Under the pieces are notes generated by a model, which did not search any database, was not told the origin of the DNA, and saw only the letters and a program-made list of their open reading frames with translations. From an uncultured Bacilli bacterium (GTDB lineage Bacteria; Bacillota_I; Bacilli_A; RF39; UBA660): 32,431 nt of DNA. A program made the translations under genes and the position numbers. Location: the NCBI GenBank assembly GCA_947626015.1, contig CANQQK010000003.1:1-32431 (forward strand). The letters run 5' to 3'. Positions 1,744 through 11,297 of the stretch are shown here, piece by piece. The number at the start of each line of letters is the position of its first letter. Position 1 is the first letter of the stretch.

Positions 1744-1772
1744 TTGACTTTTTAAATAATAATTAATATAAT
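1744..1772 (+). promoter_or_regulatory. Promoter of the ileS T-box operon
   Basis: TTGACT at 1744-1749 and TATAAT at 1767-1772 are separated by exactly 17 bp, a near-consensus vegetative promoter. Transcription should start near 1779, immediately before the T-box leader. The pheS T-box promoter uses the same -35 hexamer and spacing. Confidence 0.85.
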
Positions 1773-1778
1773 GAACCT

Positions 1779-1991
1779 TGTAAAGCAATTGATGAAGACG
1801 TCAAATATGGGATTTTATAGAGAAACTGTGGTTGGTGGAAACAGGGAAATGAAGATATTTGAAGATCACTTCGGATGCGATTTAGGGATAATCTAAATAC
1901 GTTACTCGCGTTAAGAGAATAAGTGCATGAATAAATCATGAATTAAGGTGGTACCACGGAAATATCCGTCCTTTAATTTATGATTTTTTTT
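1779..1991 (+). promoter_or_regulatory. T-box riboswitch, Ile specific (ileS leader)
   Basis: A tRNA-sensing leader of about 210 nt. The T-box core AAGGTGGTACCACGG is at 1945-1959; its TGGT matches a tRNA ending ACCA. Stem I distal features AGAGA and GGTTGGTG are near 1819-1841. The specifier is read as ATC (Ile) at 1865-1867, within GAA-G-ATC-A; the pheS leader has the same frame, GAA-T-TTC-A, with a Phe codon. The terminator pairs about 1933-1948 with 1970-1986 and ends in a run of T at 1984-1991, and is mutually exclusive with the antiterminator built on the T-box. Uncharged tRNA-Ile is expected to switch ileS on. Confidence 0.93.
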
Positions 1992-2014
1992 ATTTTATTA
2001 GAAAGGATGTTATT

Positions 2015-5000
2015 ATGAAAAATTTTAAAGAATTAGATCGTCGTAGTGTTCATGAAGTTGAAAGTTCGATCTTAGATGAATGGAAGAAGATGAATATCCT
2101 TGATATGACCATTAAAAATCGTGATGGTAAAAAAGATTGGGTATTCTATGATGGACCAATATATGCTAATGCTAAACCAGGAATCCATCATGTTTTAGCT
2201 AAAGCTATTAAGGATTCTTTTTGTAAATATAAAACGATGCAAGGTTATCGTGTTTTAAGAAAGATTGGTCTTGATACTCATGGCCTACCAATTGAAGTTA
2301 ATGTTGAAAAGAAACTAGGCTTTAAGACGAAAGCTGATATCGAAGCTTTCGGTATTGAAAATTTCTGTAAGGAATGTAATAAAGCAACCGCATTAAATAT
2401 CGATGAAATAAATTTAGTTACAGATATGATGGGACAATTTATCGATTGTGATCATCCTTATGTAACTTGTAGTAATGAATTTATTGAATCTGAATGGTGG
2501 ATTTTAAAAGAAATGGATAAAAAGGGAGTCTTATATCATGGTGATAAAGTATTACCTTATTGTCCTCGTTGTGGTACGGAATTATCTGCTAATGAAGTAT
2601 CTCAAGGTTATGAAAATGTTTCTGTAAATACGGTTATTGTTCCTTTTAAGAGAGTTGATAGTGATGAATATTTCTTAGTATGGACAACAACTCCTTGGAC
2701 ATTACTTGCTAATGTAGCAATCTGTGTTAATCCTAATATGACCTATGTTAAAGTAGAATCTATGGGTTATAAATTTATTATTGCTGAATCTTTAGCTAAC
2801 AAAGTATTAGGTGATGAATTTAAAGTCTTAGATACGTTTGTTGGTACGGATTTAGTTGGTATAAAATATGAACAATTATTACCTTTTGTTAAGGTTGAAG
2901 GTAAAGCATTTGAGGTTATAGCTGATGATTATGTTACTGCTGAAGATGGTACGGGTATTGTTCATATTGCTCCAGCATATGGTGTTGATGATAATCGTGT
3001 ATGTGCTGAAAATGGTATTGCTTTTGTTAATCCAGTTGGTAAGGACGGATGTTATACTGAAGGACCTTGGAAGGGTACATTAGTTACCTCTCCGGACTTA
3101 GAGTTAGATATCATCAAATACTTAAAGGAAAATGATAAATTATTTAAGAAGATTAAGATGAACCATGATTACCCACATTGTTGGCGTTGTCATTCTCCAC
3201 TAATCTATTTCACTAAACCTGCTTGGTATATTAGAACAACCCAATATAAGAAAGAGATTATTGAAGCTAATAAGAGTGTTAATTGGTATCCAGAATTCGT
3301 AGGTACTAAAAGATTCAATAACTGGCTTGAAAATATGGTTGACTGGGGTATCAGTCGTAACCGTTATTGGGGTTGCCCAATGCCTATTTGGATCTGTGAT
3401 GATTGTGGTGAAAAACATGTTATTGGTTCAATAAAAGAATTACAAGATATGTTGATCGAAGATGTTGATGTATCAAAGATGGAATTACATCGTCCATATG
3501 TTGATGATCTTCATCTAAAATGTCCACATTGTAATGGTCGTATGACAAGAGTAATCGATGTAATGGATGTATGGTTCGATTCTGGTGCTATGCCATATGC
3601 TTCCTTCCATTATCCATTTGAAAATAAAGAATTGTTTGAAAGTCAATTCCCAGCTGATTTCATTGCTGAAGGAGTCGATCAAACGCGTGGTTGGTTCAAT
3701 GCTTTAATCTGTATATCAACAATTATTTCTGGTAAATCAAGTTTTAAAAATGTTGTTGTAAATGATATGGTCTTGGATGCTAATGGTAAGAAGATGAGTA
3801 AATCAACAGGTAATGTTGTTGATCCAACCGTTGCTTTAACGCAATATGGTGCTGATAATGTTAGATGGTATATGTTCTATGCCTCTCCGGTATGGACACC
3901 ACTTAAATATGATGAAGCTGGTGTTAAAGAAGTTCATTCTAAATTCTTTAACCCATTTAAGAATACTTATTCATTCTTCCAAATGTATGCTAATATCGAT
4001 CATATCGATATCGATGATTGTAAGGTACCTTACGCTAAACGTGAAGAAATCGATAAATGGTTATTGAGTAAGTATCATAAACTACTAAAGAATGTTACGG
4101 ATGCTTATGAAAAATATGATTTAAATGAAGTCGTTAAACTTATAACTTCATTCGTATCTGAAGATTTATCTAATTGGTATATTCGTCGTAATCGTAATCG
4201 TTTCTGGGCTAGTACTTTAGATAATTCTAAGAAGTCTGTTTATATGACAACCTATGAAGTATTAGTTGGTCTATGTAAGATGTGTGCCCCAATTATTCCA
4301 TATACTACCGAAGAGATATATCGTAATTTAACGGGTGAAAAATCAGTTCATCTTGCTGACTTCCCTAAATATGATAAGAAACTTATCAATGAAGAAGTTG
4401 AAGTTCGTATGGACTTAGTAAGAGATTTAATCTCTACAGGTCGTTATGTTCGTGAAGAAACTAAGATTAAAGTTCGTCAACCAATTGCTGAATGTTTAAT
4501 CGATGGTAAATATGAAAGCATTTTAGGTGACTTAGTAAATCTAATCAAAGAGGAATTAAATGTTAAAAAAGTAACCTATGTTGATGATTTATCTAAGTAT
4601 ATGAACTTTACGATTAAACCTAACTTTAAGATTTGTGGTGCTATCTTAGGATCAAAGATGAAGGAATATCAAAATGCTTTATTAGATCTAAGTAATGAAG
4701 ATATTGAATCAATATTAAAAGAAGAAACGATAACGATCGATTTCGATGGAGGAAGATTAGATATAACTCCTGATATGGTTGATGTTCGTATTGAATCTAA
4801 AGAAGGATTTAATGTTGGTATGGAGAATAATAAATTCATTATTCTTAATACCGAATTAACTCGTGATTTAATCCTTGAAGGATTAGCTAGAGAATTTGTA
4901 TCTAAGGTCCAAAATATGCGTAAGACTTCCGGATTTGAAATTGCTGATCGTATTAAACTTTATTATCAAGGTGATGATGAAGTATTAGAAGCTTTAGATA

Positions 5001-5116
5001 GCTTTAAAGACTATGTCAAAGATGAAACCCTTGCTACTACTTATGAAGTTAAAGATGGTGGGGAAGTCGTTGATATCAATGGTCATGAAGTTAAAGTAAG
5101 TATTGAAAAAGAATAG
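2015..5116 (+). CDS. ileS: Isoleucyl-tRNA synthetase, IleRS2 type
   Basis: Charges tRNA-Ile in the cytosol; class I synthetase of 1033 residues, the length of the eukaryote-like IleRS2 branch. The catalytic Rossmann fold starts with DGPIYANAKPGIHH. The usual HIGH/HYGH signature is therefore G56-I57-H58-H59 (bases 2180-2191), with first and third positions changed. KMSKS is intact at residues 593-597. The CP1 editing domain shows TTTPWTLLAN and GTGIVHIAPAYGVDD. Several Cys pairs (CPRC, CWRC, CDDC, CPHC) look zinc-binding. An anticodon-binding domain and a long C-terminal extension follow. The start ATG is behind AGAAAGGATG, just downstream of the T-box. It is the only ileS in the window. The altered motif is known in some IleRS2 enzymes with extreme mupirocin resistance; that phenotype here is inference. 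Confidence 0.97.
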   Translation: MKNFKELDRRSVHEVESSILDEWKKMNILDMTIKNRDGKKDWVFYDGPIYANAKPGIHHVLAKAIKDSFCKYKTMQGYRVLRKIGLDTHGLPIEVNVEKKLGFKTKADIEAFGIENFCKECNKATALNIDEINLVTDMMGQFIDCDHPYVTCSNEFIESEWWILKEMDKKGVLYHGDKVLPYCPRCGTELSANEVSQGYENVSVNTVIVPFKRVDSDEYFLVWTTTPWTLLANVAICVNPNMTYVKVESMGYKFIIAESLANKVLGDEFKVLDTFVGTDLVGIKYEQLLPFVKVEGKAFEVIADDYVTAEDGTGIVHIAPAYGVDDNRVCAENGIAFVNPVGKDGCYTEGPWKGTLVTSPDLELDIIKYLKENDKLFKKIKMNHDYPHCWRCHSPLIYFTKPAWYIRTTQYKKEIIEANKSVNWYPEFVGTKRFNNWLENMVDWGISRNRYWGCPMPIWICDDCGEKHVIGSIKELQDMLIEDVDVSKMELHRPYVDDLHLKCPHCNGRMTRVIDVMDVWFDSGAMPYASFHYPFENKELFESQFPADFIAEGVDQTRGWFNALICISTIISGKSSFKNVVVNDMVLDANGKKMSKSTGNVVDPTVALTQYGADNVRWYMFYASPVWTPLKYDEAGVKEVHSKFFNPFKNTYSFFQMYANIDHIDIDDCKVPYAKREEIDKWLLSKYHKLLKNVTDAYEKYDLNEVVKLITSFVSEDLSNWYIRRNRNRFWASTLDNSKKSVYMTTYEVLVGLCKMCAPIIPYTTEEIYRNLTGEKSVHLADFPKYDKKLINEEVEVRMDLVRDLISTGRYVREETKIKVRQPIAECLIDGKYESILGDLVNLIKEELNVKKVTYVDDLSKYMNFTIKPNFKICGAILGSKMKEYQNALLDLSNEDIESILKEETITIDFDGGRLDITPDMVDVRIESKEGFNVGMENNKFIILNTELTRDLILEGLAREFVSKVQNMRKTSGFEIADRIKLYYQGDDEVLEALDSFKDYVKDETLATTYEVKDGGEVVDINGHEVKVSIEKE

Positions 5117-5118
5117 AT

Positions 5119-5144
5119 AAAAAGGGACGTTTAAGTCTCTTTTT
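5119..5144 (+). terminator. Terminator after ileS
   Basis: AAAAAGGGAC pairs with GTCTCTTTTT (one G-U) around a GTTTAA loop, and the descending arm serves as the T-tract. Confidence 0.85.
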
Positions 5145-5169
5145 GTCTTATAATAAAGGTGGTGATGAT

Positions 5170-5907
5170 ATGGCTTTAGATTCCAAGTTATTTGTAACGA
5201 AGATTTTCTTAGATCGTGATCATATCGAAAGTTTTGAAGAGTATCCTTTTAATATCCCGGTTGTTAAGAATTTTGAAAGTATTACTTTAAAGAGTCCGGT
5301 AACCTTTTTCGTAGGTGAAAATGGAATTGGTAAATCAACATTTATCGAAGCTATTGCAGTATCTTTGGGATTAAACCCTGAAGGAGGATCGCAACACTTT
5401 AATTTTAAAACGAGGGAAACTCATTCTAGTTTATCGGATTTTTTACATGTGCAAACATTTAATAAACCATCAACGAAGTTTTTCTTAAGAGCCGAAAGTT
5501 TTTATAATGTTGCTAGTGAAGTCGTAAGGATTGAAGAGGAAAGTCATAGTGGTCTGTATGATGCTTATGGGGGAAATCCTCATGAATGCTCCCATGGGGA
5601 ATCTTTTATCAAACTTGTCCAAAATCGCTTTTTCCCCAATGGACTTTATATCCTTGATGAACCGGAAGCTGCGTTATCACCGCAAAGACAGATGAGTTTA
5701 TTATGTCTTATCAATGATTTGGTGGAAAAGGGAAGTCAATTTATTATTGCTACACATTCACCAATTTTGATATCATATCGTAAAGGAGTAATCCTTGATT
5801 TAGATAATGATTTTAAAGAGACTGCTTATCAAGATACGGAGATCTATCACCTATATAAAATGTATTTAGATGATCCCGATGGTATGCAAAGTCGTCTTTT
5901 TGATTAA
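5170..5907 (+). CDS. AAA/ABC-type ATPase, stand-alone
   Basis: A 245-residue soluble nucleotide-binding protein of the SMC/RecF-like AAA ATPase kind. Visible motifs are Walker A GENGIGKST (49-57, K55), an ABC signature-like CSHGESF (140-146), Walker B LYILDEPEAALS (Glu164) and a switch His in ATHSPIL (H196). No membrane segments and no second domain, so it is neither a transporter nor a full SMC protein. Its partner or substrate is unknown; relatives are usually annotated only as AAA family ATPase. ATG 5170 is preferred because AAAGGTGG lies about 7 bases upstream. It is followed 20 bases later by folD in the same direction, so the two are probably co-transcribed, although no functional link is known. 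Confidence 0.85.
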   Translation: MALDSKLFVTKIFLDRDHIESFEEYPFNIPVVKNFESITLKSPVTFFVGENGIGKSTFIEAIAVSLGLNPEGGSQHFNFKTRETHSSLSDFLHVQTFNKPSTKFFLRAESFYNVASEVVRIEEESHSGLYDAYGGNPHECSHGESFIKLVQNRFFPNGLYILDEPEAALSPQRQMSLLCLINDLVEKGSQFIIATHSPILISYRKGVILDLDNDFKETAYQDTEIYHLYKMYLDDPDGMQSRLFD

Positions 5908-10291: not shown

Positions 10292-10335
10292 CATATTTTA
10301 TTCATAAAAATGATATATATTTTTAAATGTAGATG

Positions 10336-10344
10336 TGATAAAAT
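10336..10344 (+). promoter_or_regulatory. Extended -10 promoter of the Abi_2 gene
   Basis: TGATAAAAT, an extended -10, lies 17 bases before ATG 10362. No clear -35 is visible. Confidence 0.5.
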
Positions 10345-10361
10345 CTATAATAGGTGAGACT

Positions 10362-11297
10362 ATGGGAGTTAAAATATTTAAAACCCTAGACGAGCAAATC
10401 GAAATCCTAAAGAATAAGGGGCTTGTAATTGACGATGTAGATTATGCTAAAAAAATAATCTTAAGAGAGAATTACTTCTTCCTAATGGGATATCGTCACT
10501 TGTTTATGGATAGTGAGAAAAATAATAAATTTTTCTTACAAGGAACAGCATTCAGAGAACTATATGCCTTATTTTATTTCGATCGTCAATTGCGAAATAT
10601 CTTATTTAAAAATATATTGATCATTGAAAATAATACTAAGAGTATTTTCTCATACACCTTATCACAAAAATATGGTTATCGTGAAAATGATTATTTAAAA
10701 CCTAATAACTATAACCAATCTCCAGAAAAGGTACGACAAGTAAATGACTTGTTAAGAAAGATGAAAAGACAGATTAGAATCAATGGTAATCAACATGAAG
10801 CAACCAAGCATTACATCAATAATTATGGTTATATACCTCTATGGGTTGTTGTAAAAGTATTATCATTTGGTATTGTCAGTGAACTATATAATATTATGAA
10901 ATTTAATGATCAAAAAGAGATTGCTAAGGAATATAACATCGATGTCGATTCTCTTTTGACCTTCTTACCTATATTAGCAAATTATCGTAATCTATGTGCT
11001 CATGAGGATATCCTGTTTGAACATAAAACCCAAAAGGTTATACCTGATAATATCTACCATGATGCTCTAAACATACCTAAGGTTAACAATGAATATATAT
11101 ATGGTAAGGGAGATGTCTTCTCCGTTATGTTAATATTCAAATTTATGTTATCTAAGGATGACTTTAGAATGCTAATGAATGAGATATCATATGAAATCGA
11201 TAAATTAGAAGGTCGTTTACAAACGATAAAGATTGATATGGTTCTTAATCGAATGGGATTTCCAGTGAACTACAAGGTTTTATCTGAAATAGATTAG
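10362..11297 (+). CDS. Abi_2 (AbiD/AbiF-type) HEPN family protein
   Basis: A 311-residue member of the Abi_2 family, named for phage abortive-infection proteins such as lactococcal AbiD and AbiF. Family landmarks are ENYFFLMGYRHLF near residue 36, FDRQLRNILFKNILIIE (73-89), YIPLWVVVKVLSFG (157-170) and the C-terminal R209-NLCA-H214. The last is an R-x4-H motif of the HEPN fold, usually an RNase active site. Known biology: such proteins act as dormancy-inducing ribonucleases or their relatives. Role here is inference. ATG 10362 is chosen behind AGGTGAG; a GTG at 10335 overlaps the -10 and is unlikely. It has no visible antitoxin partner. Instead an HtrA protease gene starts 13 bases downstream on the same strand. 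Confidence 0.87.
   Translation: MGVKIFKTLDEQIEILKNKGLVIDDVDYAKKIILRENYFFLMGYRHLFMDSEKNNKFFLQGTAFRELYALFYFDRQLRNILFKNILIIENNTKSIFSYTLSQKYGYRENDYLKPNNYNQSPEKVRQVNDLLRKMKRQIRINGNQHEATKHYINNYGYIPLWVVVKVLSFGIVSELYNIMKFNDQKEIAKEYNIDVDSLLTFLPILANYRNLCAHEDILFEHKTQKVIPDNIYHDALNIPKVNNEYIYGKGDVFSVMLIFKFMLSKDDFRMLMNEISYEIDKLEGRLQTIKIDMVLNRMGFPVNYKVLSEID

Follow-up and report, generated by a model that had tools for sequence, protein, structure and literature searches.

The ileS locus and its encoded synthetase

The window, a stretch of 32,431 nucleotides from contig CANQQK010000003.1 of an uncultured Bacilli bacterium (assembly GCA_947626015.1), contains an ileS gene that is preceded by a T-box leader and a predicted promoter (Table 1). 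The gene is full length, scoring 928 bits on TIGR00392 against a cut-off of 621, and its product ends in DUF5915 (PF19302), which spans residues 842-1032. The sequence HYPFE, named as a motif of type 2 isoleucyl-tRNA synthetases (IleRS2) (PMC4861432), is present at residues 532-536. A profile search for zf-FPG_IleRS gave no match on the gene, the genome's single match being Fpg/MutM, and the scores against two NCBIfam exception models fall below their cut-offs (MupA, 920 of 1900 bits; MupB, 885 of 1900 bits). By clade and domain content, which decide membership, the protein is classed as an IleRS2.

The codons GGA ATC CAT CAT at 2180-2191 translate to G56-I57-H58-H59 and follow Pro55 (CCA, 2177-2179). 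MAFFT and HMMER alignments both place this GIHH at the HIGH position of IleRS, where E. coli has H-I-G-H and P. megaterium IleRS2 has H-V-G-H. As translated, with Gly first and His third, the motif is that of the G/AxHH enzymes. Alignment of the leader to the RF00230 model reads the T-box specifier as GAAG-AUC-A, an Ile codon. The first-pass annotation, made from the letters alone, had proposed the altered HIGH signature, an intact KMSKS loop in a full-length gene, and T-box control of ileS; the translation, the alignments and the Rfam match bear out each of these.

Table 1. Coordinates of the features at the ileS locus, numbered from the first letter of the window.
Feature	Position	Strand	Evidence
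Sigma-70-like predicted promoter, TTGACT-17-TATAAT, before T-box	1744..1772	+	Consensus scan, 11/12
T-box and ileS cassette common to same-genus genome G001, neighbours not shared	1765..5109	+	blastn, L001 1251-4595 vs L010
T-box leader, specifier AUC (Ile)	1780..1976	+	Rfam RF00230, 116 bits; specifier from alignment
ileS, type 2 isoleucyl-tRNA synthetase, 1033 aa	2015..5116	+	TIGR00392, 928 bits; tree; PDB matches
Tyr50, at E. coli IleRS1 Tyr59 position	2162..2164	+	Alignment
GIHH replacing HIGH (G56-H59)	2180..2191	+	Translation, alignment
Asp326, editing-domain motif HIAPAYGVDD, intact	2990..2992	+	Alignment
Met585, adenine-stacking position (PmIleRS2 His582, PmIleRS1 Phe586)	3767..3769	+	Alignment
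KMSKS loop motif, intact, aa 593-597	3791..3805	+	Translation
DUF5915, IleRS2-type C-terminal tRNA-binding part	4538..5110	+	PF19302, 191 bits; 196 bits on DNA

Directly downstream of ileS lies a gene for a small AAA_15/AAA_21-type ATPase (5143-5907), which is present in three of the 13 genomes searched (its own included) without a common neighbourhood. An AbiD/Abi_2 abortive-infection-type protein (10335-11297; PADLOC 5.8e-58; PF07751) is encoded among housekeeping genes of the window. Another ORF sits between the T-box and ileS in two relatives. It is CYTH-like at locus L013 (genome G007, about 960-1530), where codon 6 of ileS also reads TAA (MKNFK*LDKR) and the remainder is open; at locus L070 (G202, about 790-1500), an uncharacterised ORF separates a T-box-like leader from the gene.

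Clade membership and distribution of the motif

A tree of 185 IleRS sequences, in which the split between IleRS1 and IleRS2 has support of 99-100, places the window enzyme in the IleRS2 clade and away from IleRS1, as the first-pass annotation had supposed. It lies deep within a clade of 144 full-length IleRS2 genes from its family. GxHH is present in all 144, and the GIHH of the window is thus not a product of chance. The nearest relative outside the family is the IleRS2 of Acetoanaerobium noterae, which is sister to the family clade and 52% identical to the window enzyme; it likewise has GIHH and a T-box, but GPPTANG precedes its motif, with Thr instead of Tyr. Elsewhere among IleRS2, GxHH is found in Bacteroidota and Rhodococcus, and HxGH in MupA, Sutcliffiella and the families f20 and f24. 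All 24 full-length IleRS1 sequences have HxGH. IleRS2 is uncommon elsewhere in the class.

The simplest reading is that GxHH arrived with the ancestor of the clade and was not invented by this bacterium. The motif had initially been described as a trait of this one organism; the trait is there, but the single-bacterium framing gives way to one that is common to most of the family. The finding falls within the known G/AxHH kind of Brkic et al. 2023, which limits the surprise, since the motif and its meaning were already known. What is new is the family-wide GxHH, its combination with Tyr50, the exchange of ileS and the changes in the second signature motif.

The named relatives are metagenome assemblies of uncultured Bacilli, Tenericutes or Erysipelotrichaceae, many of them recovered from rabbits or from rumen or caecal samples of goats, sheep and deer. 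In some genomes of the class, TGA within ileS encodes an amino acid, as it does in mollicutes; the ileS of the window is open under the standard code. A gut-associated relative of Mollicutes is a fair description of the host, in agreement with the earlier guess. One relative (G002, contig C14, locus L233) contains a second, extremely divergent rpoB beside a normal rpoB (L261), which may stem from a contaminant or from a mobile element.

Tyr50 and the active-site pocket

Tyr50 aligns with Tyr59 of the E. coli enzyme, a position at which IleRS2 and the eukaryotic enzymes are reported to have Phe or Thr (PMC4861432). The window enzyme departs from this rule, which is a reported pattern over 334 sequences and not a structural requirement. 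Among the 144 family genes and Acetoanaerobium, the residue is Tyr in 48, Phe in 21 and Thr in 76, with three changes on the tree, so Tyr50 appears to be a derived trait of the subclade that includes the window enzyme. In the same 48 Tyr-bearing genes the second Pro of GPP is replaced by Ile (Ile49 in the window), and the adenine-stacking position holds Met in 44, the window included, and Leu in 4. No description of GxHH combined with this Tyr was found in the accessible literature. A rule by which the adenine-stacking aromatic is always lost together with GxHH was rejected: the GTHH enzyme of Rhodococcus retains His, and two sequences with Leu or Met at this position (L205 and L222) have HxGH.

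The second signature motif varies within the family as well. KMHKS replaces KMSKS in 45 GxHH genes (among them L013-L016, L018, L021, L033, L095 and L144), for which the tree implies four to six changes, and it occurs only in GxHH IleRS2 of the family. A literature search found no synthetase paper that mentions KMHKS. Genus g60 (L100-L102) has a divergent, full-length IleRS2 with K-I-H-H and KFSKT; the 2023 paper gives only Gly or Ala at the first motif position (PMC10485003). The neighbouring genus g116 (L103) has HVGH. An IleRS2 fragment at a contig end (L106, G234) reads GLNH, with Asn in the third position, which is either a real variant or an assembly error.

A single isoleucyl-tRNA synthetase

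Protein and family searches of the window's own assembly (1.15 Mb in 112 contigs, 87% complete) found no second IleRS; the other hits are ValRS, LeuRS and MetRS. A second ileS could be missing because the assembly is only 87% complete, and it is here that the relatives are informative. One IleRS is found in 57 of the 60 fully scored relatives and two in none of them. Among 193 genomes sampled from the order, 186 have one IleRS, which by score is an IleRS1 in about 18, a divergent IleRS2 in 4 and of the GxHH type in the remainder; in one genome of this sample the gene is split over two contigs. Given these single copies in relatives and order, this bacterium very probably depends on the GIHH enzyme as its sole housekeeping IleRS, a status that had earlier been put forward as a possibility.

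For the GIHH enzyme to be secondary, a canonical ileS would have to be hidden in the 13% of the genome that the assembly lacks. The incompleteness of the assembly leaves room for such a gene, yet the fully scored relatives never carry two, the GIHH gene owns the Ile T-box, and its product keeps all catalytic and editing motifs. We consider this alternative extremely improbable. Because the enzyme is the only IleRS found and its motifs are conserved, it is likely to be catalytically active, which accords with the functional enzyme predicted at first reading.

Exchange of ileS within the family

The rpoB tree groups the genera as expected, and the ileS tree conflicts with it. Within genus g1, rpoB sequences are 89-96% identical and ileS sequences 65-88%. 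Genera g28 and g53 have IleRS2 in one member and IleRS1 in another (29% identity), with rpoB at 89-93%. Between g1 and g96, rpoB is about 70% identical and ileS up to 82%. These genera were picked for their differing ileS, and the comparisons with rpoB do not give unbiased rates. Trees of ileS constrained to keep a genus together are rejected for g1, g61, g96 and g103 (p <1e-7) and for g14 (p 0.017). Of the 28 genera represented by at least two members, 16 contain ileS alleles below 72% identity. In most of the genome pairs compared for a moved gene, the similar DNA comprises the T-box and ileS, ending there, or ileS alone; the window has such a cassette in common with a same-genus genome (Table 1). 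Between the window and the close relative G004, DNA similarity extends through the neighbouring genes. The exchange is not unique to ileS, since a change of ValRS type is also seen in g61 and g96. Two ValRS sequences (L290 in G215 and L291 in G221) are only about 29-30% identical to ValRS of the same genus.

The conflict between the ileS and rpoB trees could instead stem from contig misbinning or from the differential loss of old paralogs. Most of the genomes are fragmented metagenome assemblies, and the evidence for the transfers themselves is indirect. Misbinning would yield genomes with zero or two ileS genes, however, and almost every genome has exactly one; it is ruled out for the g103 pair, each genome of which has ileS and rpoB on a single contig. 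Old paralogy is incompatible with ileS being more alike between genera (82%) than rpoB (70%). Both were rejected as main explanations on these grounds, and we judge them very unlikely. Read from these trees and alignments, ileS is exchanged within the family; we infer the direction of individual transfers.

Comparison with known systems and expected mupirocin resistance

The closest known counterparts are the G/AxHH IleRS2 enzymes of S. griseus (GxHH) and D. radiodurans (ALHH), which likewise have the third His, Gly or Ala in the first position and an intact KMSKS (PMC10485003); a housekeeping role is expected there and in the window enzyme. The pocket of the window enzyme differs from these characterised proteins at three places, with Tyr50 at the Tyr59 position, Ile49 for the second Pro of GPP, and Met585 as the adenine-stacking residue. 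The nearest solved structures are those of P. megaterium IleRS2 (42-43% identity), and the best PDB sequence match is the hyper-resistant GVHH mutant (8c8w), which has the motif pattern of the window and ranks above the wild type (8c8v). Unlike the window enzyme, P. megaterium IleRS2 naturally has HVGH and coexists with an IleRS1. P. megaterium IleRS2 is also the nearest by fold, the AlphaFold model matching it with a TM of 0.81. It adds nothing on active-site geometry, because the active-site loops are of low confidence (pLDDT <50 at the KMSKS loop). MupA, the staphylococcal plasmid IleRS2 linked to mupirocin resistance, is 41% identical, but it has HxGH (HTGH in L225) and falls outside the GxHH clade. 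It is an additional gene carried on a plasmid, whereas the ileS of the window stands alone among housekeeping genes.

In GxHH enzymes, the third His does the catalytic work of the first and at the same time blocks mupirocin (PMC10485003). The D. radiodurans enzyme has a mupirocin Ki of 6.6 mM, which drops 823-fold after a change to HVGH (PMC10485003), and the S. griseus enzyme has a Ki of 10 mM (PMC4861432). By analogy with the P. megaterium GVHH mutant, His58 would take the catalytic role of the absent first His, and its bulk, where Gly is usual, would sterically exclude mupirocin. Resistance at the target is expected from this exclusion, and the enzyme is presumably strongly resistant, which would make the bacterium intrinsically and strongly resistant; the hyper-resistance put forward in the first-pass annotation is a prediction of the same kind. 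How large the effect is varies with the enzyme background, as engineered GVHH enzymes reached Ki values of only 35-460 uM (PMC10485003). That spread, together with residues 49, 50 and 585, which are unlike those of the characterised enzymes, would fit an enzyme that is active but moderately resistant, with a Ki in the ordinary IleRS2 range, which for HxGH enzymes is about 1 uM or less, or slightly above it. Both of the natural G/AxHH enzymes that have been measured are in the millimolar range, and we regard the lower value as unlikely.

We therefore favor, with a probability of about 0.82, a reading in which the window encodes the sole housekeeping IleRS of the bacterium, a functional, T-box-controlled and mupirocin-resistant G/AxHH IleRS2 with an ancestral motif, on a cassette that is mobile among the family. 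Uncharged tRNA-Ile would act through the T-box to control the gene, the motif would be inherited from the ancestor of the IleRS2 clade on which most of the family relies, and the T-box-ileS cassette would carry genes of this clade between family members.

Inheritance or selection

Why the family has this motif and exchanges the gene is a separate matter. The enzyme may be a normal housekeeping GxHH IleRS2 whose motif is merely inherited, with resistance as a side effect of descent and routine ileS exchange, and with no mupirocin-like selection in the gut. GxHH is uniform in the family clade and common to a non-gut clostridium, the motif is unchanged in every IleRS1 of the family, and ValRS is exchanged as well. 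Set against this are the repeated KMHKS and KIHH changes at drug-contacting motifs and the frequent replacement of the gene, which hint at some selection. On balance, we give inheritance without selection a slightly better than even chance. The other view is that a housekeeping ileS acts like an accessory resistance gene, its cassette swapped and its drug-contacting motifs changing, with natural IleRS inhibitors of the gut as the cause. It builds on motif changes of differing breadth, as GxHH is found in nearly all of the genes, Tyr50 in the window's clade, KMHKS several times and KIHH in one genus, and we hold it to be doubtful. Inheritance and gene exchange explain the pattern equally as well as mupirocin-like compounds do.

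Implications

For most of a gut-bacterial family that is known here almost only from metagenome assemblies, intrinsic target-level resistance to mupirocin is predicted. Media with mupirocin are used for the selective culture of bifidobacteria, and the predicted resistance could guide selective culture of this family. The family also offers a natural series of enzymes, with HxGH, with GxHH after Thr, Phe or Tyr, with KMHKS and with KIHH. With this series one could test how the two class I signature motifs tolerate rebuilding while function is kept, and whether a Tyr at the Tyr59 position, which is linked to pre-transfer editing, is compatible with GxHH. Finally, the within-genus swapping of an essential gene offers a clear example in which the displacement of housekeeping enzymes could be studied.
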